A stretch of DNA of 64,000 bases, taken from positions 248,001 to 312,000 of the forward strand of contig NZ_AP025285.1 in assembly GCF_023168405.1 (NCBI RefSeq), in the 5' to 3' direction. The notes beneath the pieces are model-generated. The model ran no database searches, had not been told where the DNA came from, and saw only the letters and a program-made list of their open reading frames with translations. This document shows positions 8,987-59,586 of this stretch, piece after piece (positions within the stretch are counted from its first letter, which is position 1; every line of letters starts with the position of its first letter). The position numbers were made by a program, and so were the translations under genes. This DNA comes from Leptogranulimonas caecicola. Lineage in GTDB: Bacteria; Actinomycetota; Coriobacteriia; Coriobacteriales; Atopobiaceae.

Positions 8987-9026
8987 TCCGCAGGTTTTCT
9001 GCGAACCCAGCGAAGATTCGCATTTC

Positions 9027-9055
9027 AAAGGCCCGTCCTGGCGACGGGCCTTTTT
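9027..9055 (+). terminator. Rho-independent terminator of rplM-rpsI
   Basis: An 11-bp stem, AAAGGCCCGTC with GACGGGCCTTT, a 5-base loop and a run of five T. Confidence 0.92.
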
Positions 9056-9171
9056 ATGTTCGCTAGGATAAGACATGTTTAATAGGATCGGGCATTGTAT
9101 TTATAGGCATCAATAGAAGTGCCCGCCGAGGCGTCCCCGCACGCTCCACATTCGTTCCTAAGGGAGAGCCC

Positions 9172-40618: not shown

Positions 40619-42187
40619 ATGCAGGTCTACGAAGGCACTATTCTCACAGTGGATGCGCAGGATTCCGTGGCTTCCTACCTGGTAGAAGACCAAGGTCGCA
40701 TCCTTTACGTGGGCAACGGGCTGCCTCGGGAGTACTGTTCGGCTCCCCGCATTCATCTGGGAAGCAGCGTGGCCTGCCCCGCCTTCGTAGACACTCACGA
40801 GCATCTGGCATCCTTCGCGACGTTCCATGCAGGGCTCAATGTGATGGACGCCCGCTCCAACAAAGAGATTCAAAGCATGATCCGCGACTTCGCTGCGAAG
40901 TCCCGGGCAAAGACCCTCATTGCCTTTGGCGCCTCCCCTTACTCGGTGGAGGAGGGCTGCCTGCTCTCTCGCCGGGAGCTCGACGAAGCCTGCCCTGACA
41001 GGCCCATCATGATGGTCAAGTATGACGGCCATGCCTGCATCGTCAACTCGGCGCTCCTGGAGCTCGTCGAGCCCAAGGTCAAAGATCTGCGCGGCTATCA
41101 TCCCCAAAGCGGCGAGATGAACCAGGAAGCCTTCTTCGCGGTCTCAGACTTCATCACCGGCAGTCTCTCCCTTCCTGAGCTCGTTTCCAACATCCAGGCG
41201 GCCATGGACTACCTAGCATCCAAGGGCATCGGCATGGTCCACAGTGTAAGCGGGGTGGGCTTCGCGGGAAACCTCGACATCACCCTGGAGACCTGGCTTG
41301 CCAAGAGCGCCCAGGAGGGGTTCGCCATCCGCGTCTTTCCCCAGTCAATGGACATCCAGGTGGCTCAAAAGCGCGGTCTTCCGCGCATCGGCGGCTGCTT
41401 CGAGTGCGCCCTCGACGGCTGTTTTGGCAGCCAGGATGCAGCACTCTTGGAGCCTTACTCCAATGACTCAGCCAACTCGGGCGTCCTCTACTACACCGAC
41501 GAGCAGGTTCTCGCCTTCTGCCGAGCCGCCCACAGCGCCGGGCTGCAAATCGAGATGCACGCCATCGGCGACGCCGCGTTCAACCAGGCTGCCCGGTGCT
41601 TGGCCCAGGTCATCGACGAGAATCCCCGCCCAGACCACCGCCACGGCATCATTCACGCCTGCCTTCCCACACCACAGGGCCTCGAGGTCTGCGCTGCCCA
41701 TCACATCCAGTTCCCCATGCAAACCAGTTTCATCAATTGGCCTCAGGAACCCGATTCCTATCTCCGCGAGATCCTCGGCGATTCACGTGCCGAGAAGCTC
41801 AACCCCCTTCGCAGCTATTGGGATGCGGGCATCGTGCTTTCTGCGGGCAGTGATGCTCCTTGCACCGATCCCGACCCCATTCTTTGGATGGAACGCGCCT
41901 GCAACCACGACATTCCAGAGCAGTCGCTTACGCCTCAGGAAGCCTTGCGTATGTGCACCTATAACGGCGCCTGGACCACATTCGATGAGCAAGAGCGCGG
42001 CTCGCTGGAAGCCGGAAAGATCTGCGATATGGCCATTCTTTCGGGCAATCCCTACGAATGCGGGCGCGAGCGTCTCGGTGAGCTCAAAGTGGAAAGCCTC
42101 ATCCTCTCTGGCAAGCCCTATGGCCGCCAGCGTCAAAGCGTGGTGGCAGCGGTGGCCAAAGGGATGTTCTCGAGGCACCGAGCCTAG
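40619..42187 (+). CDS. YtcJ-like metal-dependent amidohydrolase
   Basis: A 522-residue amidohydrolase-superfamily protein of the PF07969/YtcJ group. The N-terminal beta sandwich is followed by the metal motif ACPAFVDTHEHLASFATFH (H-x-H), a central lysine region MMVKYDGHACIVNSALLEL, the histidines in IEMHAIGDAAFNQAARC and RHGIIHACLPT, and the catalytic aspartate in LSAGSDAPCTDPDPILWME. It ends with EAGKICDMAILSGNPYE. The ATG at 40619 follows AGGAGGAG. The substrate is unknown; an amide or carbamate is likely. It runs convergent with the acetyltransferase gene, 8 bases away. Confidence 0.88.
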   Translation: MQVYEGTILTVDAQDSVASYLVEDQGRILYVGNGLPREYCSAPRIHLGSSVACPAFVDTHEHLASFATFHAGLNVMDARSNKEIQSMIRDFAAKSRAKTLIAFGASPYSVEEGCLLSRRELDEACPDRPIMMVKYDGHACIVNSALLELVEPKVKDLRGYHPQSGEMNQEAFFAVSDFITGSLSLPELVSNIQAAMDYLASKGIGMVHSVSGVGFAGNLDITLETWLAKSAQEGFAIRVFPQSMDIQVAQKRGLPRIGGCFECALDGCFGSQDAALLEPYSNDSANSGVLYYTDEQVLAFCRAAHSAGLQIEMHAIGDAAFNQAARCLAQVIDENPRPDHRHGIIHACLPTPQGLEVCAAHHIQFPMQTSFINWPQEPDSYLREILGDSRAEKLNPLRSYWDAGIVLSAGSDAPCTDPDPILWMERACNHDIPEQSLTPQEALRMCTYNGAWTTFDEQERGSLEAGKICDMAILSGNPYECGRERLGELKVESLILSGKPYGRQRQSVVAAVAKGMFSRHRA

Positions 42188-43067: not shown

Positions 43068-44846
43068 ATGTTGACGCGCTATGAATTCGAGACGCTTCGG
43101 GTGAGGCAGGCCAACCCCCGCGCCTCTCAGCGGGCTATTGCCCAAGAAGCAGGGATTGCGCTGGGCTCGGTGAACAAGGCGGTGCACGAGCTTGAGGCTG
43201 CCGGTCTGCTGAACGAGGCAGGGGAGCCCACGGCTGCGGCCCAGGCCGCCCTGGCCCCCTATCGCGTAGGCAACGCCATTATTTTGGCGGCTGGCGTGGG
43301 CGCGCGCATCGCCCCGTTCTCTTTCGAGCGTCCCAAGGCCATGTTCGAGGTGCACGGCCAAGTGCTCATCGAGCGTCTCATAGAGCAGCTCCATGCGGCC
43401 GGCGTTCAAGAGATCGTGATCGTCGTGGGCTACATGAAAGAGGCGTTCTTTTATCTTGAGGAGCGCTACGGCGTCACCATCGTGGTGAACACAGAGTACG
43501 CTACCCGCAACAACCACTCTTCCCTCTGGGCTGCCAGGCGGTTTTTGGGCAACTCGCTCATCATCTCATCAGACCAGTACTTCACTAAAAACATCTTCCC
43601 CGCGTACTCCTACGAGTCCTGGTGCACGGTGAGCCCGCTCGAGGCTTCTTCCAACGAGGAGACTGTGGTGGCAGATTCTGCAGGCCGCGTGCTCGAAGTG
43701 CGCGAAGACGGCACTGGCGACTACCTCATGCAAGGGCCCTGCTATCTGGACCGAGCGTTCTGCGAGACCTATCTGTCCATCCTTCAGGCCGAGTATGCCA
43801 ACAGCGACACCGCCCCCAAGCTCTGGGAGGCCATCTTTTCTCAGCATGCCCAAGAGCTGTCTATGGCCGTGCGCCTGGTGGAGCCCGGTGTCATTCAAGA
43901 ATTTGACTACCTGGCAGACCTTACGGCCTTTGACCGGGACTTCTTTGCCAATGTGGACTCCCGTATTCTGGACAACATCTGCAAGACGCTTCACTGCCAG
44001 CGCGAGCAGATTTGCGATGTGCGCCCGGTGAAGGCGGGCCTCACCAACCTCTCCACGGTCTTTGCGGTGGAGGGCAAGCGCTACATCTACCGCCACCCCG
44101 GTACAGGTACCGATAAAATCATCAATCGAGAGGCAGAGACCTTTGCCTTGACCGTAGCCCGTGACCTGGGGTTAGACGATACTTTCATCTACGAGGATCC
44201 TGTCGAGGGCTGGAAGATCTCCCGCTTCGTCGACGGCTGTTCGGAGCTGGATTACGCCAGCCGCGACCAGGTGGCCCAAGCTCTCTCCATGGCTCGCACT
44301 CTGCACACTAGCGGCAAGGTCTCGCCTTGGTCCTTCGACTTCTTCTCCGAGGGCGTCAAGATCGCCGGCCTCCTCAGGGGCTGCGGCTATCCGCTGCCCC
44401 GCGACTTCGACGAGCTCATGGCCCGCGTAGAAGCCATCGCCACCCGCATGCGCTCCCTGGTCAAAGAGCCCGTGCTCTGCCACAACGACTTCTATGGCCC
44501 CAACTTCCTGGTGCGCGGCGACGAGATGCGCCTCATCGACTGGGAGTACGCCGCCATGGGCGACCCCATCTGCGACCTGGGAAATTTTGTGGCCCAGGGC
44601 TCGGGTTACTCCGTGGAGGAGACCTTGGATATCCTGCCGCTCTACTATGGCCGCGAGACCACTGCCCAAGAGCAATGGCACGCTCTGGCAGCGGTATGCG
44701 TGGTGGGCTGGTACTGGTATGTGTGGGCCATGTACAAGGAGGCTATGGGAAACCCTGTGGGCCAGTGGCTCTACACCTGGTATAAAGCGGCTGTCACCTT
44801 TGGCAAAGCTGCCGAGAAACGCCTGCAGCAGGCATCCCTGCACTAA
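43068..44846 (+). CDS. Three-domain protein: winged helix + nucleotidyltransferase + choline-kinase-like (LicC-LicA type)
   Basis: A 592-residue fusion. Residues 1-65 form a MarR-like winged helix (QRAIAQEAGIALGSVNKAVH). About 68-300 are a sugar-nucleotidyltransferase fold with IILAAGVGARIAPFSFERPKA. About 310-592 are a LicA/choline-kinase-like domain with VLCHNDFYGPNFLV (H-N-D-x4-N) and MRLIDWEYAAMGDP (metal site). LicA phosphorylates choline and LicC makes CDP-choline in phosphocholine-decorating bacteria; both steps appear joined here. The true substrate could be another amino alcohol. The ATG at 43068 follows AAGGAAC. A copy of the window-wide element lies in its last codons (AAEKRLQ). 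Confidence 0.88.
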   Translation: MLTRYEFETLRVRQANPRASQRAIAQEAGIALGSVNKAVHELEAAGLLNEAGEPTAAAQAALAPYRVGNAIILAAGVGARIAPFSFERPKAMFEVHGQVLIERLIEQLHAAGVQEIVIVVGYMKEAFFYLEERYGVTIVVNTEYATRNNHSSLWAARRFLGNSLIISSDQYFTKNIFPAYSYESWCTVSPLEASSNEETVVADSAGRVLEVREDGTGDYLMQGPCYLDRAFCETYLSILQAEYANSDTAPKLWEAIFSQHAQELSMAVRLVEPGVIQEFDYLADLTAFDRDFFANVDSRILDNICKTLHCQREQICDVRPVKAGLTNLSTVFAVEGKRYIYRHPGTGTDKIINREAETFALTVARDLGLDDTFIYEDPVEGWKISRFVDGCSELDYASRDQVAQALSMARTLHTSGKVSPWSFDFFSEGVKIAGLLRGCGYPLPRDFDELMARVEAIATRMRSLVKEPVLCHNDFYGPNFLVRGDEMRLIDWEYAAMGDPICDLGNFVAQGSGYSVEETLDILPLYYGRETTAQEQWHALAAVCVVGWYWYVWAMYKEAMGNPVGQWLYTWYKAAVTFGKAAEKRLQQASLH

Positions 44847-44876
44847 CATCTGAGCCCTAAAGACACAGGAGGCAAC

Positions 44877-45665
44877 GTGAGCCCATTGACAGAAGAGCGC
44901 TTCGAGGTGCTGGCGAGCAAGGCTATGGCCGGTGAGGCGAGCCCGCAGGAGCTGGAGGAGCTGGAGCCCTATCGGGCCAAGCGCGCCGTGCTATTGGCCA
45001 GCGGCATGGGGAGCCGCCTGCGCCCCATCACCATCAACACCCCCAAGCCGCTGGTAAACGTGAACGGCCGCCGCATCATCGAGACCCTCATAGAGCCCCT
45101 TGTCGCCCTGGGCATCCAAGAGATCTACGTGGTCACCGGCTATCTGGCCTCGGAGTTCGAGCTTTTGCGCCAGGAATACCCCCAGGTGACCCTCATCTAC
45201 AACCCCCTTTACGCCACCACCAACAACATCTCCAGCGCGCTGGCGGCGGGCAACCACTTTGAGAACGCCTTCGTCTTCGAGAGCGACCTCTACCTCAAGA
45301 ACCCCCAGCTGCTTACCCCCTACAGCTTCCATTCCTGGTACCTGGGCGTGCCGGTAGACTCCACCCCCGACTGGTGTTTCGACGCCTACGACGGCATCAT
45401 CCGCGACCTCCACAAGGGCGGAAAAGACTGCTACCACATGTATGGCGTGAGCTATTGGACTGCCGCCGACGGCAAGCAGCTGGCCTCTGACCTCGTCGAA
45501 GCCTTCGATGCCGAGAATAACCGCCAACGCTTCTGGGACGACGTCCCTTGCGTGCTCTTCCGCGACCATTACCAGGTGCATATCAAGCCCTGCACCTTTG
45601 ACGACATCAACGAGATCGACTCTCTGGCAGAGCTCCAAGAGGTCGACCCGCGCTATGAGATGTGA
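44877..45665 (+). CDS. LicC-like nucleotidyltransferase (stand-alone)
   Basis: A 262-residue nucleotidyltransferase with the motif VLLASGMGSRLRPITINTPK near residue 40, ETLIEPLVALGIQEIYVVTGY, and NNISSALAAGNHFENAFVFES with the metal-binding acidic residue. The fold fits CTP:phosphocholine cytidylyltransferase (LicC). The first 35 residues are short and polar (LTEERFEVLASKAMAG), perhaps a remnant of the helical N-terminus of its fused neighbours. The GTG at 44877 follows CAGGAGG. It comes 30 bases after the first three-domain gene and 9 bases before the next gene. Confidence 0.88.
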   Translation: MSPLTEERFEVLASKAMAGEASPQELEELEPYRAKRAVLLASGMGSRLRPITINTPKPLVNVNGRRIIETLIEPLVALGIQEIYVVTGYLASEFELLRQEYPQVTLIYNPLYATTNNISSALAAGNHFENAFVFESDLYLKNPQLLTPYSFHSWYLGVPVDSTPDWCFDAYDGIIRDLHKGGKDCYHMYGVSYWTAADGKQLASDLVEAFDAENNRQRFWDDVPCVLFRDHYQVHIKPCTFDDINEIDSLAELQEVDPRYEM

Positions 45666-45674
45666 GGTGGCCCT

Positions 45675-46628
45675 GTGAAAATCATCTCGTTCGAAGGCAT
45701 CAAGAACTTGGGGATTACCCCGAAGGATTGCCTTGAGTGGACGCGAGAGGCGCTCGAGCGCAAAGCCGATGCCATGCTTCCTCCAAAGATCTCCCTCAAG
45801 CCCCCTCATCTGTCGGGAAGCTTTTACAACGTGATGCCCACCATCGCGCCGGCTCTCAACATCGCCTGCGTCAAGCTGGTGACTCGTCTGCCCCATGCAG
45901 AGCCGGCTCTCGACGGCAACCTATTGCTCTCAGATCTTGCGACCAATAGCGTCTCTGCCTTGATGGATGCCACTTGGATCACCAATGCGCGCACGGGTGC
46001 GGTGGCAGCCCATAGCGCTGCGCTGCTGGGGATCCCCGGGTTTACGCGGGTCGGGTTTATCGGTCTGGGAAACACTGCGCGCGCTACCTTGGATTGTCTG
46101 CGCGCCGCAGTGCCAGAGCGGCATCTTGAAGTCACGTTGTTGGCCTACAAGGGGCAGGAAGAGGGTTTCCAAGAGCGCTTCGCCGCCATGCCCGAGGTTA
46201 CCTTTCACGTGGTAGACGATGTCAAAGAGCTGGTGGCTCAAAGCCAGGTGGTCTTCTCCTGCGTCACTTATACGCCTGAAGACTTTATCGATGACGATTC
46301 TGCTTTCGCGCCAGGCATCACGCTCATTCCCGTTCACACGCGTGGGTTCACCCAGTGCGACCTCACCTTTGACAAGGTCTTTTGCGACGACCGAGGCCAT
46401 CTGCACAACTTCAAGAACTACGCTGCCTTCGAGCCCCGCCTCACCGAGGTGGCAGAGGTAGTCAGCGGCCAGAAGCCTGGCCGCACCTCGGACGAGGAGC
46501 GCATCCTGGTCTACAACATCGGCATCGCGCTCCAAGACCTGGTCTATGCCAAGCATGTCTACGATGCGGCGAAAGACTTGGTGCCCGATGTGGTCTATCC
46601 CAGGCCCCAAGAGAAATTCTGGGCTTAG
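45675..46628 (+). CDS. Ornithine cyclodeaminase / mu-crystallin family protein
   Basis: A 317-residue protein with the family's layout: substrate region MLPPKISLKPPHL, HAEPALDGNLLLSDLATN, MDATWITNARTGAVAAHSAALLG and the Rossmann motif VGFIGLGNTARATLDCLRA. Members include ornithine cyclodeaminase, alanine dehydrogenase and imine reductases using NAD(P). The GTG at 45675 overlaps the ribosome region left by the preceding stop. Its place inside a lic-like cluster is unusual; it might make or recycle the amine that is activated by the neighbours. That role is inference. Confidence 0.85.
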   Translation: MKIISFEGIKNLGITPKDCLEWTREALERKADAMLPPKISLKPPHLSGSFYNVMPTIAPALNIACVKLVTRLPHAEPALDGNLLLSDLATNSVSALMDATWITNARTGAVAAHSAALLGIPGFTRVGFIGLGNTARATLDCLRAAVPERHLEVTLLAYKGQEEGFQERFAAMPEVTFHVVDDVKELVAQSQVVFSCVTYTPEDFIDDDSAFAPGITLIPVHTRGFTQCDLTFDKVFCDDRGHLHNFKNYAAFEPRLTEVAEVVSGQKPGRTSDEERILVYNIGIALQDLVYAKHVYDAAKDLVPDVVYPRPQEKFWA

Positions 46629-46652
46629 GGGCTGCGCAGCCAAGGAGGGCAG

Positions 46653-46723
46653 CGCTTCTCGGCAATAGGGGAGTGTCCGACCACAGGAGCAGGCTTTGAA
46701 GGAGGGGACGGGTTTCTCGGCAG
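46653..46723 (-). repeat. Two TGCCGAGAA elements between the OCD-like and second three-domain gene
   Basis: GCTTCTCGGCAA at 46654-46665 and GACGGGTTTCTCGGCAG at 46707-46723, both in minus orientation. Confidence 0.7.
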
Positions 46724-46751
46724 GGGCGGGTCGTTCGCTTATGCAATGGGG

Positions 46752-46778
46752 TACGTGTTCGCAAACAACGTATTGACA
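46752..46778 (+). promoter_or_regulatory. Inverted repeat and TTGACA upstream of the second three-domain gene
   Basis: TACGTGTTCGCAAACAACGTA is an imperfect palindrome directly before TTGACA at 46773-46778. No convincing -10 lies at the expected distance before the start codon, so the promoter is uncertain. Confidence 0.3.
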
Positions 46779-46826
46779 AGATTTTAGAACAGAGCCATGA
46801 TGGATTCGAGAAGAAAGGATCCCCTT

Positions 46827-48626
46827 ATGGCTCTTGATCATAATGAGTTTCGTGTGGCTCGGGCGCTCTTGGACGGCATGGCTACTCAGCGCACTCTGGC
46901 TGAACGGGCGCACCTGGGCGTGGCCACGGTGAACAAAGCGCTCAAAAGCTTAGATGGGCGCGACCTGATAAATGAGCAGGGACTCACCCCCAAAGGCCAA
47001 GAAGAGCTGGAAGCCTACAAGGTGGACAACGCGGTCATCATGGCGGCGGGGCTCTCCAGCCGCTTCGTGCCGCTGTCCTACGAGCAGCCCAAGGGTCTGC
47101 TCAAAGTGCGCGGCCAGGTGCTCATCGAGCGTCAGATCGAGCAGCTTATCGGCGCCGGCATCCCAAAGATCTATGTGGTGGTGGGCTATAAGCAGGAGCT
47201 CTTCTTCTATCTGGAAGACAAATACCCCCAGGTCACCATCGTGGTGAACCGCGAGTATGCCTCCCGCAACAACAACTCGTCGCTCAAGGCGGTAGAGGAC
47301 AAGCTGGCAAACACGTATATTTGCAGCTCTGACGACTACTTCGAGGAGAACCCCTTCGAGGCCTACGTATGGAAGTCCTACTACGCTGCCCAGTACGCCC
47401 AGGGCGAAACCTCTGAGTGGGTCATGACCTGCGGGCCCCATGGGCGTATCACCAAGGTGAAGATCGGCGGCGAATGTGGCTGGTACATGCTGGGCCAGGT
47501 CTACTTCGACCGCGAGTTCTCGGTCAAGTTCCGCGAGATCCTCGATGAGGAGTACGACCGTCCCGCCACCGCGCCCAAGCTCTGGGAGGAGCTCTACATC
47601 GACCATATCGGCGAGCTTGACATGCGCATCCGCCGCTATGAGACCCCCATCATCCACGAGTTCGACTCCCTGGATGATCTGCGCGAGTTTGACCCGCTCT
47701 TCCTAGACAACATCGACTCCGACATCATCGACAACATCACGGCCGCCCTAGGCTGCTCTCGCACCGAGATCCACGACGTCTACCCCTTGAAGGAAAGCCT
47801 CACCAACCTCTCCTGCCACTTTGCCACCAACGACGGCGAGTACGTCTATCGCCATCCCGGCATAGGTACCGAGAATATCATCAACCGTCAAAGTGAGTTG
47901 GACGCCCTCACGGCCGCTCGCGACAACGGCCTGGACTCCACCTTCATCTGCGCGAACCCTGAGGAAGGCTGGAAGATCTCGCGCTTCGTTCCCCACGCCA
48001 CCACCATCGACGTGCACAGCCACGAGGGCCTCAAGCAGGCTATGGATGTGGCGCGCAAGCTCCACGAGTCGGACATCAAGCTCGAGAGTACCTTCGACTT
48101 CTATCGAGAGGCCAAGCACTACGAGTCGCTGCTGCTCGAAAAAGGCCCCATCCAGGTGCCGGAGTATGCTGTCTGGAACGAGCTGGCAGAGCGCGTGCAT
48201 GCTGCCATGGAGCAAGACGACGCCCCCGTCACCGTCACCCATAACGACTTTTTCTACCTCAACTTCTTGATCGAGCAGGACGGCACCTTCAACCTCATCG
48301 ACTGGGAGTACGCCGGCATGGGCGACTCCACCAACGACCTGGCCACCTTCTCGGTCTGCTGCGAGCTCTCCGACGAAGAGGTGGACGACGCCATCGACCT
48401 CTACTATCAAGGTCGCCCCACGCCCGAGGAGCGCCGCCACAACCTGGCCATGATCGGCATGTGCGGCTGGTGCTGGTACTGCTGGAGCCTGCTCAAGGAG
48501 AGCGACGGCGACTTCATCGGCGAGTGGCTCTACATCTACTACCGCTACGCCAAGAAGTACCTCACCCTGGCAGCCGAGCTCTATGGCCTAGCAGGCGATG
48601 CCGAGAAACCCGCCCCCGCCTGCTAG
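46827..48626 (+). CDS. Second three-domain protein: winged helix + nucleotidyltransferase + choline-kinase-like
   Basis: A 599-residue paralogue of the protein at 43068. The winged helix (residues 1-65) includes QRTLAERAHLGVATVNKAL. The nucleotidyltransferase starts with VIMAAGLSSRFVPLSYEQPK. The kinase domain has VTVTHNDFFYLNFLI and FNLIDWEYAGMGDS. The ATG at 46827 with AGAAAGGA is preferred to one at 46797. The last residues are DAEKPAPAC, encoded by a full copy of the window-wide element. Having two such fusions plus a separate nucleotidyltransferase suggests two activated alcohols or two steps with different specificity. Confidence 0.88.
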   Translation: MALDHNEFRVARALLDGMATQRTLAERAHLGVATVNKALKSLDGRDLINEQGLTPKGQEELEAYKVDNAVIMAAGLSSRFVPLSYEQPKGLLKVRGQVLIERQIEQLIGAGIPKIYVVVGYKQELFFYLEDKYPQVTIVVNREYASRNNNSSLKAVEDKLANTYICSSDDYFEENPFEAYVWKSYYAAQYAQGETSEWVMTCGPHGRITKVKIGGECGWYMLGQVYFDREFSVKFREILDEEYDRPATAPKLWEELYIDHIGELDMRIRRYETPIIHEFDSLDDLREFDPLFLDNIDSDIIDNITAALGCSRTEIHDVYPLKESLTNLSCHFATNDGEYVYRHPGIGTENIINRQSELDALTAARDNGLDSTFICANPEEGWKISRFVPHATTIDVHSHEGLKQAMDVARKLHESDIKLESTFDFYREAKHYESLLLEKGPIQVPEYAVWNELAERVHAAMEQDDAPVTVTHNDFFYLNFLIEQDGTFNLIDWEYAGMGDSTNDLATFSVCCELSDEEVDDAIDLYYQGRPTPEERRHNLAMIGMCGWCWYCWSLLKESDGDFIGEWLYIYYRYAKKYLTLAAELYGLAGDAEKPAPAC

Positions 48627-48702
48627 TCGCTTTTGGTCATCTCGCAGGATCACCCCCACCTGCCTTTGCCGCACGGCTCACCTGACGAAAGAAGGATCAT
48701 CT

Positions 48703-49647
48703 ATGGGATACGGACTTACCAGCGGCTTGCTCTGGGGCCTGGACACCGTCATCTTGGGCATCGCCCTCTCCATGGCACCCTACGTGGGCACCGCTGAGGC
48801 GCTGGCCTTCGCTGCCATTGTGAGCGCCGCCTTTCACGACGTCTTCTGCGCCGTGTGGATGTTTGTGATCATGGCCGTGCGCGGGCGTCTCAAAGACACG
48901 GTGGCCGCCCTCAAAACCCGCAGCGGCAAGGTGGTCGCTGCCGCGGCCCTTCTGGGCGGCCCCTTTGGCATGACCGGCTATGTGGTGGCCATCAACCAGC
49001 TGGGCCCGGGCATCACCGCCATCATCTCCAGCTTCTACCCGGCCTTTGGCGCCTTTTTGGCCGTCTTCGTGCTCAAGGAGAAGATGGAGCTCAAGCGCTG
49101 GATCGCATTAGCTGTCGCTATGGCTGCCATCATCGTGATGGGCGTGGCCGCCAGCGATATGGAGATGCCCGGAGACGCGCTGGTGGGCATTCTGGCCGCT
49201 CTGGCCTGCGTGGTGGGTTGGGGCAGTGAGGCCGTGCTTTTGGCCTGGGGCATGCGCGACGACTCGGTGGACAACGAGACCGCCCTGCAAATCCGCGAGA
49301 CCACCTCTGGCCTGGTCTATCTGGCAGTAATCCTGCCGCTCTTCGCCGCCTGGCCCTTCGCTGTCCAGGTGTTCGCCACCCCTGCCACCGCCGTGATCGC
49401 CGGCGCCGCGTTGGCCGGCACCGTCTCCTACCTCTTCTACTACAAGGGCATCGACAAGATCGGCGCCGCCAAGGCCATGGCGGCCAACATCTCCTACTCG
49501 GCTTGGGCCGTGGTGCTGGGCCTGGTGCTTCTGGGCCACGTTCCCAGCCTTATCGAGATCGTCTGCTGCATCGCCATCCTCTGCGGCACGGTGCTTGCCT
49601 CTGCCGACGACTGGAGCGAGCTCATCCCTGGCAAGAAGAGCGCGTAA
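48703..49647 (+). CDS. LicB-like DMT-superfamily permease
   Basis: A 314-residue protein with ten predicted membrane segments in two EamA-like halves (GYGLTSGLLWGLDTVILGIA at the start, NQLGPGITAIISSFYPAFG and KIGAAKAMAANISYSAWAV near the ends of the halves). In phosphocholine-decorating bacteria LicB is a choline permease of this superfamily, and the position between lic kinase-type and licD genes supports that role. The ATG at 48703 follows GAAAGAAGG. A strong terminator follows its stop. Confidence 0.88.
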   Translation: MGYGLTSGLLWGLDTVILGIALSMAPYVGTAEALAFAAIVSAAFHDVFCAVWMFVIMAVRGRLKDTVAALKTRSGKVVAAAALLGGPFGMTGYVVAINQLGPGITAIISSFYPAFGAFLAVFVLKEKMELKRWIALAVAMAAIIVMGVAASDMEMPGDALVGILAALACVVGWGSEAVLLAWGMRDDSVDNETALQIRETTSGLVYLAVILPLFAAWPFAVQVFATPATAVIAGAALAGTVSYLFYYKGIDKIGAAKAMAANISYSAWAVVLGLVLLGHVPSLIEIVCCIAILCGTVLASADDWSELIPGKKSA

Positions 49648-49682
49648 TCCGAGCGGCAGCGCGCGAGTCGCCATCGCAAGCA

Positions 49683-49721
49683 GGGAAGTCTTTCTCATAG
49701 CCGAGAAAGACTTCCCTTTTT
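49683..49721. terminator. Terminator between the LicB-like and LicD genes
   Basis: GGGAAGTCTTTCTC and GAGAAAGACTTCCC form a perfect 14-bp stem followed by TTTTT; it separates convergent genes. Its loop side reads GCCGAGAAAG, a partial copy of the window-wide element. Confidence 0.9.
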
Positions 49722-49763
49722 CGTGTGCGTTATGGGTGGCCAGGTGCCGATCCGGCGCAGTCG

Positions 49764-50618
49764 CTAGGACTGCTTCTTGGCAGCCTCCACCACGTTGATG
49801 CCGTCGCCAAAATCCAAGACTTCCGGTGCATGGGTGTAGCGTTTGTCGGCAGGGGGAAGCGCCTGCCAGTCGCCATAGGTGGCAGTGAGGTAGGCCTCGA
49901 TGTTGTGGGGGCCCATAAGCTCGACGCCCTCGAACTTGATGGGAACCGGGGGCAGCAGGTCCTGGGCGGGAATGGGCTCGTAGTCGGCATAGGTGGCGTC
50001 CACCATAAGGTCACCGGGGTTCTCCGTGTGGCAGGCACGCTCGAACATCTGGGCGATGTAGGCCATGGACATGTGGCGTACTACGCCGTGAGCTGCCTCG
50101 CAGGCCAGCTCCAGCGCGCGGTTGGGCACGTTGTGGGGATGAGCCAGATACTTGAGGTAGGCCATGCGCTGCCAGAAGAGCAGGCGGCGCCGCTGGCGGG
50201 CGGCGATGCCAGGGTCGCGATCCAGGCGCACCAGGCGGAAGATGTCTAAGAAGATGCCCTGCTCCATGCCGGCCTCTACTGCCACGCTGTCTTGAAAGCG
50301 AGTCCCGTCTTTCCAAAGCGTCGCCCACAGGCGGGTGTAGTGGGGGGTATTTTTCCAGGTATGAAGGGAATAGTCCTCCGGCAAGTAGCGGGGGAGCACT
50401 TCCAGCATGCGGGTGTAGTCATCGGTGGGCATAGACACGTCTACGTCGTCATCCCAGGGGATAAAGCCGCCATGGCGAAGGGCCCCTAGGGCCGTGCCTC
50501 CCTCGATGAAGTAGGTGAGGTGCGCATCTTTGCAGGCCTGGTCAAAGACTTTGAGCATTTCCAGCAACTCATGATGGAGACGATCTAGAGAATCGCCAGG
50601 ATAGGGTGTGGTTTCCAT
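49764..50618 (-). CDS. licD: LicD-family phosphotransferase
   Basis: A 284-residue LicD protein. The diagnostic region is YFIEGGTALGALRHGGFIPW followed by DDDVDVSMPTDDYTRML, the catalytic metal site of the family. LicD transfers phosphocholine from CDP-choline onto a surface glycan such as teichoic acid. It is on the opposite strand to the rest of the locus. The ATG at 50618 lies before a GC-poor divergent promoter region shared with the glycosyltransferase gene. LicD relatives can also move other phospho-alcohols. Confidence 0.9.
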   Translation of the reverse strand: METTPYPGDSLDRLHHELLEMLKVFDQACKDAHLTYFIEGGTALGALRHGGFIPWDDDVDVSMPTDDYTRMLEVLPRYLPEDYSLHTWKNTPHYTRLWATLWKDGTRFQDSVAVEAGMEQGIFLDIFRLVRLDRDPGIAARQRRRLLFWQRMAYLKYLAHPHNVPNRALELACEAAHGVVRHMSMAYIAQMFERACHTENPGDLMVDATYADYEPIPAQDLLPPVPIKFEGVELMGPHNIEAYLTATYGDWQALPPADKRYTHAPEVLDFGDGINVVEAAKKQS

Positions 50619-50765
50619 GGGGTTACTCCAGGGTTTGAGGTCGACATTCTATGATGTGAACGCTTCTATACCTTGTCTATAGAGCCAAAGTGTCCATACC
50701 TCTAGTATCTCTTACACATACGAGGCGGCCACCCTTTTAACCTTTTGACCAGAAAGATTATTTTT

Positions 50766-51908
50766 ATGGCCTCAACCCATGCCTACGTGATCTTTTCGGC
50801 TCAATATCTTCCATCCATGGGAGGTGTCGAGAATTTCACTGCCTCCTTGGCCAAAGAGCTCGCCTCCCAGGGCCACCGAGTGACCGTAGTCACCTCTCAG
50901 GTGCCCAACACGTCGAGCCGCGAAGACACCCAGGGCTTCGAGGTGGTGAGGCTTCCTGCCTATCAACTGCTTAACGGCCGCCTGCCTATCACCCACCGCA
51001 CGGCAGCCTACGAGCGCATTTGGGACTACCTGCTGGAGCTTCCCTGCGATCGCGTGTTGGTGAACACGCGCTTTTACCCCCACTCGCTGGAGGGCCTTCG
51101 CTACGCAGAGGCAAAGGGCGTCCCTGCGGTGGTGCTTGAGCATGGGTCGGCGCCCCTTACCTTGGGAAACCCCCTGGCAGACCACGCTATCTCTGCCTAC
51201 GAGAAGGTTATCACCCGCCTAGGTGCTCGCTATGAGCCTCGTTATGCAGGTATTTCGCTGGCTGCGTGCCGCTGGCTTGCCGCAGAATTTCATATCCGCA
51301 CTCAGCGAGTGATTCCCAACGCCATTGATGCCGTAGCTTTTAGAGCCCAGGCTTCCAGCCGCGACCTTCGTGCCCTGGCATCGGTTGAGCCCCAGGATTT
51401 TGTGGCGGCGTTTATCGGCCGTTTTGTAGCCGAGAAAGGCGTGCTTACCTGCCTGGGTGTGGCTGAGTGCCTGCCGCAGGTCTCCTTTGTGTTTGCGGGA
51501 TCGGGGCCTTTGGACGATGAGGTGCGCGAGCGCTGCAGCAAGCTTTCTAACGCCACCTATGTGGGGCGCCTGGATAAGGCTGACGTGTCGGCCCTGCTCT
51601 TCCAGGCTGACTGCTGGGTGTCGCCTACCCTGTCGGAGGGTATGCCTACCTCGCTTTTGGAGGCGGGAGCCTGGGGAACGCTGCCGGTCATAAGCCCTGT
51701 GGGCGGTGTAGAAGATGTGCTGGGCCCAGATGGCGGCCCTGGGGAGCTTTGCAGCTTGGAAGCAGGCTCTGTGCAGGCGGCTTTGGAGCGTCTGGCGGCA
51801 TTGAGTCCAGAGGATCGTCAAGCCCGTTCTGATGAGTTCCGCCATCGAGTAGAAACCGCGTTTACCTGGGCAGACTCCGCTCGTGCCCTGGATAAAGCCT
51901 TCGAATAA
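50766..51908 (+). CDS. GT4-family glycosyltransferase
   Basis: About 380 residues with the GT-B fold of family 4. The N-terminal half shows FSAQYLPSMGGVENFTASLA and the C-terminal half FIGRFVAEKGVL, YVGRLDKADVSALLFQADCW and SPTLSEGMPTSLLEAGAWG with the E-x7-E nucleotide-sugar site. It uses a retaining mechanism and acts on the cytoplasmic side of a membrane lipid acceptor in most relatives. The ATG at 50766 lacks a strong ribosome site; TTG at 50745 is an alternative. It leads a unit with the YidC/glycerophosphotransferase fusion and the sulfatase-like protein. Confidence 0.85.
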   Translation: MASTHAYVIFSAQYLPSMGGVENFTASLAKELASQGHRVTVVTSQVPNTSSREDTQGFEVVRLPAYQLLNGRLPITHRTAAYERIWDYLLELPCDRVLVNTRFYPHSLEGLRYAEAKGVPAVVLEHGSAPLTLGNPLADHAISAYEKVITRLGARYEPRYAGISLAACRWLAAEFHIRTQRVIPNAIDAVAFRAQASSRDLRALASVEPQDFVAAFIGRFVAEKGVLTCLGVAECLPQVSFVFAGSGPLDDEVRERCSKLSNATYVGRLDKADVSALLFQADCWVSPTLSEGMPTSLLEAGAWGTLPVISPVGGVEDVLGPDGGPGELCSLEAGSVQAALERLAALSPEDRQARSDEFRHRVETAFTWADSARALDKAFE

Positions 51909-51919
51909 GGAATACGTAC

Positions 51920-54070
51920 ATGCTGGAAATGCTGGCTGCTTTCTTTAGCACCATTCTGGATCCGTGCTATACGGTCACCGGTAACTGGTGGTTGGCCATT
52001 GTGCTGTTCACCATTGTCACCAAGATCCTGCTTTTGCCCATCTCGCTCTGGTGCCAAAAGAACTCGCTTTTGGTGGTGAGCCTGATGCCCCAGGTAAATG
52101 CCATCAAAGTGAAGCACTTTGGCGACAAGGAGACCATCGGCGAGGAGCAGAACAAGCTCTATAAGCAGGAGGGCTATCATCCTCTGCTTTCCATGCTGCC
52201 TCTGGCCATCCAGGTGCTCATCCTCTTTGGCTTGGTAGACGTCATTCGTTCCATCGTAGCCTCGGGCGAGCCGGGAACGGCGCTTTTGGGTCTTGTGCCG
52301 GTAACCGACGGCGGCTGGTCATGGATCATGCCGGTGTTGGCAGCGGCCTCCTCGGCCATCTTGGGAGCGGCCCAAAACCACATCAACCCTCTCCAGCGAG
52401 AGCAGGGCAAAGCGGAGAAGGCCTCCACCAACGGCCTCTCCATTGGCCTGTCTGCCATACTGGGGGTCTCGGTGGCCAGCGGCATGGTCTTCTACTGGAT
52501 CTGCTCCAACCTCATGGCTATCGTGGTGCAGCTGGCCTGCAACCTCATCATGAATCCCAAGAAGCACGTGGACTACGACGCGTTGCGCGCCTCCCAAGCA
52601 GAGCTCCAGGCGCTGGAAGACCTCTCGGCCTCAAACAAGAAGTGGTACGAGAAAAACCCGCTGGCCAAGCGCGAGCGCGAGGACATCGCGCGCTTCTACG
52701 ACGTGGTGGACAAATCCATCGTGTTCTATAGCGAGGGCAGCGGCTTTTACAAGTACTTTCGGGGCGCCATCGAGTGGCTGCTGGAGCACTCCGACATCCG
52801 CATCCACTACATCACCAACGACCCCAACGACCAGGTCTTTGAGATTCACCAAAGCCAGCCACGTCTCATTCCCTACTACATGAGTGTCCAAAAGCTCATC
52901 ACCGTCATGATGAAGATGGATTGCGACGTCTTCGTGGCCTCCCTGGCAGACTTGGACAACTACTACCTCAAGCGCTCCTATGTGCGCAAAGACATCGAAT
53001 ACGTGGACATGCTGCACCACACCACCTCTATGCATCTGGTGGGCGCTGCCAACTGCCACGACCACTACGACACCATCTTTTGCGCCGGCCCCCACCAGAT
53101 CGCCGAGACTCGCGCCTCCGAGAAGCTTCGCGGCGTGCCCGCGAAAAATCTTGTGCCCATCGGCTACGACCTGCTCGACCGAGAGCGCCAAGAGTATCGA
53201 GAGCTGCAAGAAACGCTCCCCAAGCACAGTCGCCCGCAAGCCACCCATCGCCCCCAGGCCCTCATCGCCCCCTCCTGGCAAGAGGACAACATCTTGGACC
53301 TCTGTGCCGCCGACACTATCAACTCATTGTTGGAGGCCGGCTTCGACGTGACCGTGCGCCCCCATCCGGAATATGTCAAACGCTATGGCGCCCGTTGGAA
53401 CGCCCTCAAGGAGCGTTTCTCGGCAGTGCCCGAGGGCCAGGTCACCTTTGAGGACGACTTCTCCGGCGAGAGCTCCATCTTTGCGGCAGACGTGCTGCTC
53501 ACCGACTGGTCTTCCATCGCCTGTGAGTTCTCCTTCACCACCGACAAGCCCACCCTCTTCATTGACACGCCCATGAAGGTGGGAAACCCTGACTGGCAAG
53601 AGATCGGCCTCGTGCCCACCGAGATCTCGCTGCGCAACCAGATTGGCCAGTCGGTGGCCGTGGAAGACGTGGCTTCCATCGGGTCTATCGCCTGCTCCAT
53701 GGTGGACGAGGCCTCCCAGTGGCACGACCGCATCGAGGAAGTCTACGACACCTTCATCTTCAACCACGACCATGGCGGCGAGGCTGCAGGTCGCTACTTG
53801 TTAGATGCCGTGCTCAGGGCCCAAGCTCAGAAGGGCAAGAAGGGCGAGGGTCTCACTCCTCCCGTTCCTCGCCGGGCCACACCCGATGCCCCGTACACCC
53901 AGGATCCCCAGGACGCGGCAGATGCCCAAGAAGTCGCTGAGGCCCAGGATGCCAACGACGCCCAGGCTGCCGAGAAGGGCGCGCCGCCTGTTTCCCCAGA
54001 CGTCTCTGAGAAGCCCTACACTCCCAAACATTTTGCAAAGCCTAGCCAGCAGGAGGACTCCCATGAATAA
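51920..54070 (+). CDS. YidC-like membrane domain fused to CDP-glycerol glycerophosphotransferase
   Basis: A 716-residue fusion. Residues 1-215 follow the YidC/Oxa1 pattern: WWLAIVLFTIVTKILLLPIS, a cytoplasmic helical hairpin (MPQVNAIKVKHFGDKETIGE), then HPLLSMLPLAIQVLILFGLV and MVFYWICSNLMAIVVQLACN. The intramembrane Arg of YidC is replaced by Lys35. Residues from about 270 to 620 match teichoic-acid CDP-glycerol glycerophosphotransferases (MLHHTTSMHLVG, VTVRPHPEYVKRYGARW, VLLTDWSSIACEFSF). The tail of about 80 residues is Ala/Asp/Pro rich and includes a copy of the window-wide element (AAEKGAP). The protein may polymerise or cap glycerophosphate on a surface polymer. It overlaps the next gene by 8 bases. 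Confidence 0.9.
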   Translation: MLEMLAAFFSTILDPCYTVTGNWWLAIVLFTIVTKILLLPISLWCQKNSLLVVSLMPQVNAIKVKHFGDKETIGEEQNKLYKQEGYHPLLSMLPLAIQVLILFGLVDVIRSIVASGEPGTALLGLVPVTDGGWSWIMPVLAAASSAILGAAQNHINPLQREQGKAEKASTNGLSIGLSAILGVSVASGMVFYWICSNLMAIVVQLACNLIMNPKKHVDYDALRASQAELQALEDLSASNKKWYEKNPLAKREREDIARFYDVVDKSIVFYSEGSGFYKYFRGAIEWLLEHSDIRIHYITNDPNDQVFEIHQSQPRLIPYYMSVQKLITVMMKMDCDVFVASLADLDNYYLKRSYVRKDIEYVDMLHHTTSMHLVGAANCHDHYDTIFCAGPHQIAETRASEKLRGVPAKNLVPIGYDLLDRERQEYRELQETLPKHSRPQATHRPQALIAPSWQEDNILDLCAADTINSLLEAGFDVTVRPHPEYVKRYGARWNALKERFSAVPEGQVTFEDDFSGESSIFAADVLLTDWSSIACEFSFTTDKPTLFIDTPMKVGNPDWQEIGLVPTEISLRNQIGQSVAVEDVASIGSIACSMVDEASQWHDRIEEVYDTFIFNHDHGGEAAGRYLLDAVLRAQAQKGKKGEGLTPPVPRRATPDAPYTQDPQDAADAQEVAEAQDANDAQAAEKGAPPVSPDVSEKPYTPKHFAKPSQQEDSHE

Positions 54071-56150
54071 GCAGCTAAGGCGTCCTTTTGTCTGGCTCTT
54101 CGACGGCCTCTTTGTGTGTGTGCTGGCCACGCTCTATCTGGCCTGCTTTGCCACGCCGGCCCAAGCCTACGTGGATCCCTCGGTAGTGACCTATACCATC
54201 CAGGCGCTGGCAGGTGTGGCGGTGGCACTCTCTGCGGTGTTGGGCGTGGTATGGCGCCGTCTGCGCAAGCGCCTCTATAAGGCATTGAACATCGACGAGA
54301 ACCGCGACAAGGTCCATGACCCTGTGGTTCATGAGGTGAATCCGGCTTCCGATGAGGGCCAGCAACTGCTGCGCGAAGCCAGCCGCAAAGCCTTGGAGGA
54401 TGAGAAGCTGGTAGGCCCTCATAAGCCTCAGAACCTGCGCTGGGCTCCTCGCTTCGTGCTGTCGCTTTTGGCTTGGGGCTGCCTTATCTATTCGCTGGGC
54501 GTGGTGACTCCGCTTTCCATGATGGCCAGCAGTCTGGACAGCTTCATCTTTGGCCTGGACGTGGTAACCCCTGCGCTGCTGGTGTTTGCCGCGACGCTCT
54601 GGCTAGCCCTCTCTGTTCTGACCTCCCTGGTGAGGGGTAGGGCCTTTACCGTGGTGGCCGCTCTTATCGGCGCTCTTTCGGTGGCAGTGTTTGTCCAAGG
54701 CAGCTTTATGAACGTAGGCTTGCCTGTGGCCGACGGCAAAGAGGTGGTATGGGGAAACTTCCTCCAGATCACCTTGGTAAGCTCGCTGGTATGGGTGGCC
54801 TTGATGGTGGCAGCGGTGGCCTGGGCGCTCTTTAGCGCCAAGACGCTTAAGGCAGCGGTGGTGATTCTCTCTATCGTGCTGGTGGGCGTGCAGTCGGGGG
54901 TGCTGGTGAGCAGCCTGCAGCAAGCCGAGGGCGACCTTGCGTCCATGGGTGCCCCCGACACCCTTTGGACCGGCCGCCCCATGGTCACCACTCAAGATCG
55001 AGACACGGTGTCAGAAGGACACAACGTGGTGATGTTCGTTCTGGACACGGTGGACAACGGCTATTTTGACCAAGTGCTTGCCCAATACCCTGGCATCGTG
55101 GACGACTATACCGGCTTCACTCACTACGCCAACTGCTCCGGTATGATGATCCCTACGCGCTATGCCATGGCAGACCTGGTGACCGGCTATTGCCTTACCG
55201 ACGAGGACGACGCCTACGGCACCAGCGTCATCTCATCCTGGTATGCGGCGGAGAACCTGGTGGATGCCATGAAAGACAACGGCTATAGCGTGGACATCTA
55301 CTCCACCGACATGCCCCAGGGCACCTCCTCGCTGCAGGGGCGCGTGGACAACATCCATGAGCTGGAGACCCAGCCTGGCTTTTGGCCCACAGTGTCCTCC
55401 CTCTGGAAGATGTCGCTTTACCGCTCAGCCCCTTGGGCTCTAAAGCCGCCTTTCTGGTTCTACTCCGGCGACATCGCCAACGACATTTTGGGCAATGCCA
55501 CAGGGGACACCCCCTTTATCCTGGATGATGCGCAATACCTGGAGGACCTCAAAGAGAACGGCCTTGCCTTTGAGGAAAACGAGGACGTCACCTCCCGGGG
55601 CACCTACAAGCTCATCCACATGATGGGTTCCCACTATCCGGTGACCCTCGATGATCAGGGCCGGCGCGTGCCCGAGCAAGACACCGATGTGGTCAAGCAG
55701 ACCCGCGGCGCGTTGCTGGCGGTGGAGCAATACATGGACGAGTTAAAGCGCCTAGACATCTATGATGAAACCACCATCATCGTCACGGCAGATCACGGAT
55801 ACTGGTATCTGGCTGACGAAATCGATGGCCCCACCAGCCCCTTCTTGCTGGTGAAGCCCGCAGAAGATGCGGCCCAAGCCGCCGAGCCCATGAAGACTTC
55901 CTGGGCCCCTGTAAGCCAGCATGACCTGGCAGCCACTCTTCTCAAGGCTATGGGCGATCCCAGCTATCATGAATGGGGCACGCCGGTGGACGAGGTGCCA
56001 GAAGACCAGCCACGCACCCGCTACTACGATGCCACCTCCGTGGCTGACTACCACGATTACTACGCTATCAAAGAGTGGGCTATCGACGGCGATGTACGCG
56101 ACTGGGATGCCTGGACAGAGACGGGCAAAGAGTGGCCCATCGTGGATTAG
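54063..56150 (+). CDS. Membrane sulfatase-family (LTA-synthase-like) protein
   Basis: A 695-residue protein with an N-terminal membrane segment, a roughly 90-residue cytoplasmic part, a block of four or five membrane segments (about 120-290) and a large extracellular alkaline-phosphatase/sulfatase domain. Key motifs are NVVMFVLDTVDNGYFDQVL (metal Asp), the probable nucleophile Thr or Ser in YANCSGMMIPTRYAM, YKLIHMMGSHYPV and IIVTADHGYWYLADE. Lipoteichoic acid synthases and phosphoethanolamine/phosphoglycerol transferases share this layout. It is translationally coupled to the fusion protein upstream, so both probably act on the same glycerophosphate polymer, this one outside the membrane. Confidence 0.85.
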   Translation: MNKQLRRPFVWLFDGLFVCVLATLYLACFATPAQAYVDPSVVTYTIQALAGVAVALSAVLGVVWRRLRKRLYKALNIDENRDKVHDPVVHEVNPASDEGQQLLREASRKALEDEKLVGPHKPQNLRWAPRFVLSLLAWGCLIYSLGVVTPLSMMASSLDSFIFGLDVVTPALLVFAATLWLALSVLTSLVRGRAFTVVAALIGALSVAVFVQGSFMNVGLPVADGKEVVWGNFLQITLVSSLVWVALMVAAVAWALFSAKTLKAAVVILSIVLVGVQSGVLVSSLQQAEGDLASMGAPDTLWTGRPMVTTQDRDTVSEGHNVVMFVLDTVDNGYFDQVLAQYPGIVDDYTGFTHYANCSGMMIPTRYAMADLVTGYCLTDEDDAYGTSVISSWYAAENLVDAMKDNGYSVDIYSTDMPQGTSSLQGRVDNIHELETQPGFWPTVSSLWKMSLYRSAPWALKPPFWFYSGDIANDILGNATGDTPFILDDAQYLEDLKENGLAFEENEDVTSRGTYKLIHMMGSHYPVTLDDQGRRVPEQDTDVVKQTRGALLAVEQYMDELKRLDIYDETTIIVTADHGYWYLADEIDGPTSPFLLVKPAEDAAQAAEPMKTSWAPVSQHDLAATLLKAMGDPSYHEWGTPVDEVPEDQPRTRYYDATSVADYHDYYAIKEWAIDGDVRDWDAWTETGKEWPIVD

Positions 56151-59490: not shown

Positions 59491-59586
59491 AAAGGGAGCC
59501 TCCCTAAAAAATGTGATGTGGGGGAGGCTCTTAGAAGCGGTGCGGATAGGCGCCATGAAACTTGCTGGGCCTTTTGTGCCGAGCGG

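Follow-up and report, generated by a model that had tools for sequence, protein, structure and literature searches.

Genes of the locus

The window, the whole 64,000-nucleotide stretch of Leptogranulimonas caecicola DNA that was analysed, contains the gene cluster listed in Table 1. All components of a lic system are found there, namely a LicA-type kinase, a LicC-type transferase, a LicB permease and LicD, and every gene named in the initial annotation is present with its named domains according to Pfam and PDB matches. The span given there, 43068 to 56150, captures the cluster except for the amidohydrolase gene upstream, which belongs to the second activation set described below. Both nucleotidyltransferase-kinase fusions are present as annotated, but an N-terminal winged helix exceeds the Pfam cut-off only in LicCA1, and LicCA2 gave a sub-threshold TrmB match. 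The NTP domain of LicCA2 matches pneumococcal LicC (1jyk, E 9e-37) and its kinase domain matches LicA (4r77, E 1.5e-22). LicC ends 9 bp upstream of the gene for an enzyme of the ornithine cyclodeaminase/mu-crystallin family, hereafter OCD. The best PDB matches of the amidohydrolase are the uncharacterised hydrolases 3icj and 3igh, and it perhaps frees an amine from an amide. LicD likely transfers phosphocholine, or a second unit, from its CDP form onto the polymer. The Glyphos_transf (TagF-like) domain is of the CDP-glycerol glycerophosphotransferase family. The GT4 gene is variable, with 53% identity to the copy in a congener.

Table 1. Genes of the locus, with positions in the window
Feature	Position	Strand	Evidence
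Amidohydrolase (Amidohydro_3, YtcJ-like)	40619-42187	+	PF07969 E 1e-54
LicCA1, winged helix-cytidylyltransferase-choline/ethanolamine-type kinase fusion	43068-44846	+	Pfam HTH_24, NTP_transf_3, APH/Choline_kinase
LicC, stand-alone CTP:phospho-amino-alcohol cytidylyltransferase	44877-45665	+	1jyk E 1e-28, 6pd1 E 4e-13
OCD/mu-crystallin-family enzyme	45675-46628	+	PF02423, 89 bits, cut-off 24
LicCA2, cytidylyltransferase-choline kinase fusion, LicB-linked type	46797-48626	+	Pfam; LicC and LicA structure matches
LicB-like EamA permease, likely choline uptake	48703-49647	+	PF00892 E 5e-19
LicD phosphotransferase	49764-50618	-	PF04991 E 4e-35, 122 bits
GT4 glycosyltransferase	50745-51908	+	
60KD_IMP (YidC) and TagF-like Glyphos_transf fusion	51920-54070	+	PF02096 E 1.5e-28, PF04464 E 3.5e-7
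LTA-synthase-like membrane sulfatase-family polymerase/transferase	54063-56150	+	PF00884 E 3.5e-7

Two activation sets and two kinase types

The genes fall into two activation sets. Set 1 consists of LicCA2 and the LicB (EamA) permease and is of the usual choline type, while set 2 comprises LicCA1, the separate LicC, the OCD-like enzyme and the amidohydrolase. LicCA1 and LicCA2 lie in separate clades of the kinase tree and differ in both pocket residues and partners. The pocket signature of LicCA2, TRDFYCWWW, is common to LicB-linked kinases, and a LicB homologue is found at most 2.5 kb from most LicCA2-type kinases. The signature of LicCA1 is TRDYYGWWW, and the amidohydrolase, which is 62-74% identical between genera and in one other family, adjoins the kinase in 12 of 12 LicCA1-type loci. 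LicC is fused to LicCA1 in three loci (L016, L130 and L132). An ethanolamine permease adjoins LicCA1 orthologues in L016, L021 and L180, and none was found in the window's own cluster.

The initial annotation would have counted loss of the quaternary-amine cage against its reading, but the aromatics of the LicA cage (Y197, W251, W254 and Y268) are kept in both kinases. The cage therefore cannot separate choline from other amines here, and, to judge from its pocket, LicCA1 may also take choline as substrate. The counterpart of LicA E213 is G in LicCA1 and C in LicCA2. The earlier suggestion that duplicate activators point to a second or non-choline alcohol agrees with the two clades, their different pockets and their different partners. 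We propose from these sequence comparisons that the locus decorates a surface polymer via two different activation systems, one of which is probably non-choline.

The OCD subfamily and its replacement in the same slot

The AF2 model of OCD (pLDDT 93.6) is closest in fold to SbnB (Z 37.9; 1.8 A over 306 residues, 24% identity), which is also its best PDB sequence match; archaeal alanine dehydrogenase 1omo (Z 36.8) and ornithine cyclodeaminase are near in fold and sequence. OCD scored far below the cut-offs of the curated NCBIfam cyclodeaminase equivalogs (43 vs 408 and 26 vs 350 bits) and of the SbnB/L-Dap synthase equivalog TIGR03944 (77 vs 327 bits), and no SbnA-like partner gene was recognised in the loci read. 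With at least 40% identity as the criterion, the OCD subfamily comprises 44 loci in four phyla, mostly from animal gut, and it is sharply bounded, the next OCDs showing at most 30% identity. One member (L051) belongs to the gut commensal Bacteroides cellulosilyticus DSM 14838. K67, R106, G130 and G132 are invariant in the subfamily and in 36 of 36 outgroup OCDs; we take K67 and R106 to be the substrate-carboxylate residues and GxG to be the dinucleotide motif. D288 of the OCD family is also kept, and the subfamily has invariant residues of its own (R71, H221, H242, R276 and Y280). In the plasmid and phage collections no close homologue of OCD was found, and two records labelled as Staphylococcus phage match it at 29%.

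The neighbourhoods of the 44 subfamily members were compared with those of 36 other OCDs in the same scan, within 6 kb. A cytidylyltransferase was found near 28 of the 44 and near one of the 36 (Fisher 4e-9), and CobD-like genes (18/44 vs 1/36), LicD (16/44 vs 0/36), TagF (11/44 vs 0/36) and aminoethylphosphonate genes (4/44 vs 0/36) followed the same pattern. All 11 OCD loci with TagF also have an LTA-synthase-like gene, and TagF/LTAS homologues lie immediately beside OCD in L022, L030, L041, L042 and L055. In eight of the 44 loci, some of them on truncated contigs, no gene for activation or transfer was recognised in the vicinity. The amine appears to be supplied in three ways, by an ethanolamine permease (TIGR00908, above cut-off) with a kinase, by a fusion of cytidylyltransferase and CobD-like decarboxylase (NTP-CobD), or by the aminoethylphosphonate genes PepM/Ppd/AepZ, all above cut-off; these independent routes would converge on aminoethyl-phosph(on)ate. 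The window's genome lacks the NTP-CobD fusion; the aminotransferase-like and NTP-transferase frames that matched it there were separate and did so only in part. A PEP mutase route to aminoethylphosphonate as the amine in this genome was considered and rejected, PF13714 giving only a sub-threshold match (E 5e-4).

In a congener (genome G023, locus L128), LicCA1 and LicC are 97% and LicCA2 is 98% identical to those of the window. DNA homology of 94% extends up to window position 45682, eight bases inside the OCD frame, breaks off there and is found again from 46703 on, 75 bases after the OCD stop. The intervening insert encodes an Octopine_DH protein (ODH; L128 positions 8337-9404; PF02317, 89 bits vs a cut-off of 30) with the same ribosome-binding site and start codon as OCD, and its best PDB match is octopine dehydrogenase 3c7a (E 3e-22). 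The His of SFVHP and the Asp of NRYLTED in octopine dehydrogenase, its catalytic residues, are both matched in the alignment. The exchange was surveyed systematically in Coriobacteriia only, where 6 of 121 genomes of the family carry OCD, 9 carry ODH and none carries both. NTP-CobD or a LicCA1-type kinase was present in 14 of the 15 genomes with either gene and in 4 of the 106 others (Fisher 6e-14). ODH occupies the same settings as OCD, either behind the NTP-CobD fusion (L129, L140, L141, L154-L157, L175 and L179) or with LicCA1/LicC (L128, L139, L174, L180 and L181). On the Treponema contig L055, an intact OCD and an intact ODH are adjacent to each other. Neither gene occurs in the LicCA1-type loci L130 and L132 or in the NTP-CobD locus L224, indicating that the step is optional.

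A proposed opine-type modification and comparison with known systems

Tauropine is formed from pyruvate and taurine, which is aminoethyl sulfonate. Strombine and tauropine dehydrogenases of marine sponges are members of pfam02423 (PMC4575208, PMC4113996, PMC3840593). Since the OCD and octopine-dehydrogenase families both contain known opine makers, the swap in one slot points to an opine-type function, and it is from this replacement that we infer an opine dehydrogenase activity for OCD. The initial annotation suggested that OCD might help to make an alcohol from an amino acid, a role that does not fit an enzyme that looks opine-type and that gives way to an octopine-dehydrogenase-family gene in the congener; an amino-acid origin holds only for relatives with a CobD-like (phosphoserine/phosphothreonine decarboxylase-like) domain instead of a kinase. 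As an opine-type dehydrogenase, OCD probably adds an N-carboxyalkyl group to phosphoethanolamine, CDP-ethanolamine or aminoethylphosphonate, and LicD or TagF-like enzymes would then transfer the product.

According to this proposal, a teichoic-acid-like surface polymer would receive CDP-activated units of two kinds. Set 1 (LicB, LicCA2 and probably LicD) would import, phosphorylate and activate choline. In set 2, an amino alcohol, most likely ethanolamine, would be phosphorylated, and OCD would then condense a 2-oxo acid (most likely pyruvate) with the amino group of phospho- or CDP-ethanolamine and reduce the resulting imine with NAD(P)H. The product would be an opine-like N-(1-carboxyalkyl)aminoethyl phosphate, the phosphate analogue of tauropine. 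LicC/LicCA1 would convert it to the CDP form for transfer by LicD or by the TagF-like/LTAS machine. Gene content, the two kinase clades, the limits of the subfamily, its neighbourhood association and the exchange of OCD for ODH in one slot are seen in the sequences themselves; the reaction with its amine, 2-oxo acid and stereochemistry, the order of steps, the transferase, the polymer and the final structure are predictions. Points that weigh against the proposal are the lack of an ethanolamine permease in the window's own cluster, the aromatic cage kept by LicCA1, the adjacent OCD and ODH of L055, the eight OCD loci where no activation or transfer gene was recognised, and the three loci with neither dehydrogenase.

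Opine-type reactions are reversible, SbnB runs in the oxidative direction, and kinase-type loci contain uptake and amidohydrolase genes. OCD/ODH might thus instead cleave imported N-carboxyalkyl amino alcohols (opine- or glycation-like) oxidatively, freeing the amine for the kinase and leaving plain phosphoethanolamine or phosphocholine on the polymer. We consider this unlikely, since 18 OCD loci and most loci with ODH have the NTP-CobD fusion as the partner and the aminoethylphosphonate route occurs in four OCD loci; these routes make their own phosphorylated or phosphono amine, so a releaser of free amine would be of no use there. The closeness of OCD to 1omo and ornithine cyclodeaminase would also suit an ordinary amino-acid dehydrogenase or cyclodeaminase that provides an amino acid, for instance to D-alanylate the polymer. 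This too seems improbable given that an octopine-dehydrogenase-family enzyme fills the same slot, that the subfamily is bounded with invariant residues of its own and that the loci read contained no recognisable dlt genes; no octopine-dehydrogenase-family enzyme is known to be an alanine dehydrogenase or a cyclodeaminase. A plain duplicated lic locus, with both fusions activating choline and with OCD and the amidohydrolase as passengers of a variable capsule region, would fit the conserved cage and the replaced GT4 gene but is very improbable, because the two types of kinase group apart and each keeps its own set of partners across dozens of genomes, the OCD association recurs in four phyla and the exchange of OCD for ODH is bounded at one gene's borders.

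The proposed opine-type modification may extend further. We tentatively suggest, with some doubt, that opine-like N-(1-carboxyalkyl)aminoethyl phosphates or phosphonates are widespread on the surface polymers of gut bacteria. They would be made by either of two unrelated families of dehydrogenase, one substituting for the other gene by gene in a shared operon slot, with opposite stereoisomers, and hence different antigens, as a possible outcome. Phosphocholine and phosphoethanolamine are bacterial surface groups that the host immune system recognises, and the modification, if correct, would be a third surface chemistry, an anionic opine-like relative of these two, for which the OCD subfamily, or ODH in its place, would serve as a genetic marker in searches of any genome. 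It would also give a function to an enzyme subfamily that the name ornithine cyclodeaminase would then mislabel, and tie together several loci of unclear product. The natural swap of two unrelated enzymes in one slot suits a direct test of function and stereochemistry. In the open-access literature searched, we found no description linking the OCD subfamily to surface-polymer decoration, no paper joining LicD and ornithine cyclodeaminase or treating phosphocholine and LicD in Coriobacteri-, and nothing usable on N-(2-hydroxyethyl)alanine or AlaEtn.

The lic operons (licA, licB, licC and licD) are known from Streptococcus pneumoniae and Haemophilus influenzae, and a LicCA fusion from Treponema denticola. 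The window locus resembles them in its permease, kinase, CTP-transferase and LicD, in its LicA/LicC sequence matches and in the kinase-transferase fusion, but differs in its second set with an amidohydrolase, an extra LicC and the proposed opine-type dehydrogenase, and in its TagF/LTAS-type machine with a YidC domain. The LPS of Proteus O14 reportedly contains N-(2-hydroxyethyl)alanine phosphate, and rumen protozoa contain phosphatidyl-N-(2-hydroxyethyl)alanine; with pyruvate as the 2-oxo acid, the proposed reaction would yield such N-(2-hydroxyethyl)alanine phosphates. The main text of a study of Proteus O-antigen clusters names no gene for the amino-acid-like substituent of O14 (PMC5560731). 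PntC-type fusions of cytidylyltransferase and aminotransferase (6pd1), which act in the aminoethylphosphonate pathway, have a related NTP domain, and aminoethylphosphonate genes adjoin OCD in four loci, but the fused partner in most OCD loci is CobD-like and not a class V aminotransferase. SbnB of staphyloferrin B/L-Dap biosynthesis has the closest fold and an opine-like secondary amine as its substrate, whereas its low identity to OCD, the lack of an SbnA-like partner in the loci and the distinct invariant residues of the OCD subfamily set the two apart. The sponge tauropine/strombine dehydrogenases (OCD/mu-crystallin) and mollusc-type opine dehydrogenases (octopine-dehydrogenase family) belong to the same two families that exchange here, and taurine, the substrate of tauropine dehydrogenases, is the sulfonate analogue of aminoethyl phosphate/phosphonate. 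Unlike in those animals, the amine here is proposed to be phosphorylated or CDP-linked, and while sponge and mollusc opines are end products of anaerobic energy metabolism, the product here would be a surface-polymer building block.

Neighbourhoods of the OCD subfamily

Every gene that the initial annotation had listed for 43068-56150 was found with the domains stated for it; for the nucleotidyltransferase domains the match is to pneumococcal LicC, for the kinase domain of LicCA2 it is to LicA, and an uncharacterised amidohydrolase is counted as a further member of the set (Table). The genome around the window is complete at 2.0 Mb and shares its family with Atopobiaceae entries such as Olsenella sp. 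SW781 (G086, locus L016). A radical-SAM and MEMO/AMMECR1-like gene pair at 57120-59556, identified by eye only, is unrelated to the polymer-decoration finding.

To place the ornithine-cyclodeaminase/mu-crystallin-family protein (OCD), 84,980 species genomes were scanned with an alignment of six homologues. The OCD subfamily comprised 44 loci at 40% identity or above (one fragment counted), followed by a gap down to 30% or below; these loci came from Actinomycetota, Bacillota, Bacteroidota and Spirochaetota, with the animal gut as the main source. Neighbourhoods were compared with those of 36 more distant OCDs from the same scan, truncated contigs occurring in both sets. Using profiles built in this analysis, which derive partly from the test loci and favour them for close homologues, we found a cytidylyltransferase within 6 kb at 28/44 subfamily loci versus 1/36 controls (Fisher 4e-9), a CobD-like gene at 18 versus 1, LicD at 16 versus 0, TagF-like and LTAS-like genes each at 11 versus 0, aminoethylphosphonate genes at 4 versus 0, a LicCA-type kinase at 3 versus 0 and an ethanolamine permease at 2 versus 0. 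Curated models supported the key partner calls, with TIGR02320 (PepM), TIGR03297 (Ppd), TIGR03301 (AepZ) and TIGR00908 above cut-off; the CobD-like domain matched TIGR01140 (CobD) at E about 1e-54, yet below cut-off. At L048:1785-3788, a tandem pair of 313-aa OCD-subfamily genes lies downstream of a cytidylyltransferase-CobD-like fusion (NTP-CobD).

Coordinates of window genes and fusion loci
Feature	Location	Remark
Amidohydrolase (Amidohydro_3)	window 40619-42187	uncharacterised
LicCA1; LicC; OCD	window 43068-44846; 44877-45665; 45675-46628
LicCA2; LicB-like permease	window 46797-48626; 48703-49647
YidC-domain fusions	window 51920-54070; L022:11022-13829; L025:12293-15070; L041:12220-14988; L055:3439-5484
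CTP_transf_like-GFO_IDH_MocA fusion + aminotransferase	L159:8669-12048	OCD alongside
CTP_transf_like-GFO_IDH_MocA fusion + aminotransferase	L176:9357-13006; L177:7239-9572; L178:8816-12635	ODH alongside
Listed with the preceding fusions	L175:14876-17355

Two kinase types and the supply of an amine

LicCA homologues (cytidylyltransferase-kinase fusions) were gathered from 121 genomes of the family and aligned to the choline pocket of LicA (T29, K45, D176, V178, Y197, E213, W251, W254, Y268; PMC4364537). LicCA1 and 11 of 12 amidohydrolase-linked kinases share the signature TRDYYGWWW, the sole exception being the divergent L035 (TRDYYDWWV), whereas LicB-linked kinases have TRDFYCWWW or near variants. 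In a maximum-likelihood analysis, where LicA and L035 form long branches, a single change was enough to split the two groups in 99% of the bootstrap trees. Signatures and tree thus separate a predicted choline type, LicCA2 with LicB, from a different type represented by LicCA1; an Amidohydro_3 enzyme accompanied all 12 LicCA1-type kinases examined. Because both kinases retain the aromatic cage, the pocket alone does not identify the LicCA1 substrate. Ethanolamine permeases adjoining LicCA1-type kinases, above the TIGR00908 cut-off in L016 and L021 and matched by our own profile in L180, point to ethanolamine.

Ethanolamine uptake with a kinase, the type to which the window is assigned, is one of three supply routes beside OCD. 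The second is the NTP-CobD fusion, whose threonine-phosphate-decarboxylase-like domain best matches PDB 6oux, then CobD 1lc5, and would convert phosphoserine to phosphoethanolamine, or phosphothreonine to its methyl homologue. The third combines PEP mutase, phosphonopyruvate decarboxylase and an aminotransferase, for 2-aminoethylphosphonate. All three routes are predicted to present a primary amine carried by a short phosph(on)ate undergoing CTP activation. Since the second and third proceed without free ethanolamine, alkylation probably takes place on an amine that is already in its phospho/phosphono or CDP form. A fourth setting pairs a CTP_transf-GFO_IDH fusion and an aminotransferase with OCD at L159 and with the octopine-dehydrogenase-family gene ODH (below) at L176, which L177 and L178 resemble; it may make an amino-polyol, possibly through a CDP-amino-polyol pathway that includes this tailoring step.

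Exchange of OCD for ODH and transfer machinery

In the congener G023 (locus L128), LicCA1 and LicC are 97%, LicCA2 98% and LicB 99% identical to those of the window. DNA similarity of 94% extends to window position 45682, eight bases inside the OCD frame, and restarts at 46703, just past the OCD stop. Between these borders lies a 355-aa octopine/nopaline dehydrogenase-family protein (ODH; PF02317 89 bits, cut-off 30; octopine dehydrogenase 3c7a, E 3e-22), with ribosome-binding site and start codon as for OCD. The GT4 gene (window 50669-51917) has no DNA match in L128 and is 53% identical as protein, which makes it a second exchanged gene in a locus whose remainder is about 94% identical.

Among the 121 family genomes, OCD occurred in 6, ODH in 9 and both in none; this zero is not significant by itself (about 0.4 expected), and the weight of the replacement argument lies in the shared slot. 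All ODH loci of the family sample are in OCD-like settings: directly behind NTP-CobD (L129, L140, L141, L154-L157), between LicC and LicCA2 (L128) or beside amidohydrolase-LicCA1-LicC (L139). ODH loci from other families of the Coriobacteriia (L174, L175, L179-L181) follow this pattern too, the systematic survey being confined to Coriobacteriia. NTP-CobD or a LicCA1-type kinase (at least 50% identity) was present in 14/15 genomes with OCD or ODH versus 4/106 without (Fisher 6e-14). Both genes are intact at L055; at L054:9992-12079 a frameshifted OCD adjoins an intact ODH in a single sequence, which may reflect ongoing displacement or a misassembly. L130, L132 and L224 carry activation genes without either, which argues that the step is optional.

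LicD and TagF-like genes (16 and 11 of the 44 OCD loci) never co-occurred within 6 kb (Fisher 0.003), and LTAS-like genes were present in all 11 TagF-containing loci, a pattern pointing to two alternative machines for transfer. Both are encoded in the window, as would fit the presence of two activation sets there. YidC (60KD_IMP) is fused to the TagF-like enzyme in Atopobiaceae and to an LTAS/sulfatase-like enzyme in other lineages, a Rosetta-stone hint that the three parts form one machine.

A proposed opine-type step

Among the open-access papers searched, no description of a link between OCD/ODH and surface polymers was found. Opine formation, in which a 2-oxo acid is condensed reductively with an amine, is the reaction known for both families. 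Tauropine is a product of pyruvate and taurine; the latter, 2-aminoethanesulfonate, is the sulfonate counterpart of aminoethyl phosphate and aminoethylphosphonate. Strombine and tauropine dehydrogenases of sponges are OCD-family members (PMC4575208, PMC4113996, PMC3840593). The predicted OCD model (pLDDT 93.6) has its closest structural match in SbnB (Z 37.9), an enzyme acting on a secondary amine that resembles an opine. The carboxylate-binding Lys and Arg of the family (K67, R106) are retained, and the subfamily-specific invariant residues R71, H221, H242, R276 and Y280 are candidates for holding the phosphate. Taken together, these likenesses lead us to propose that the activated unit is N-(1-carboxyalkyl)aminoethyl phosphate, which the OCD/ODH step would form. 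With an N-(1-carboxyethyl) group this unit would be equivalent to N-(2-hydroxyethyl)alanine phosphate, reported from Proteus O14 LPS and a rumen protozoal lipid.
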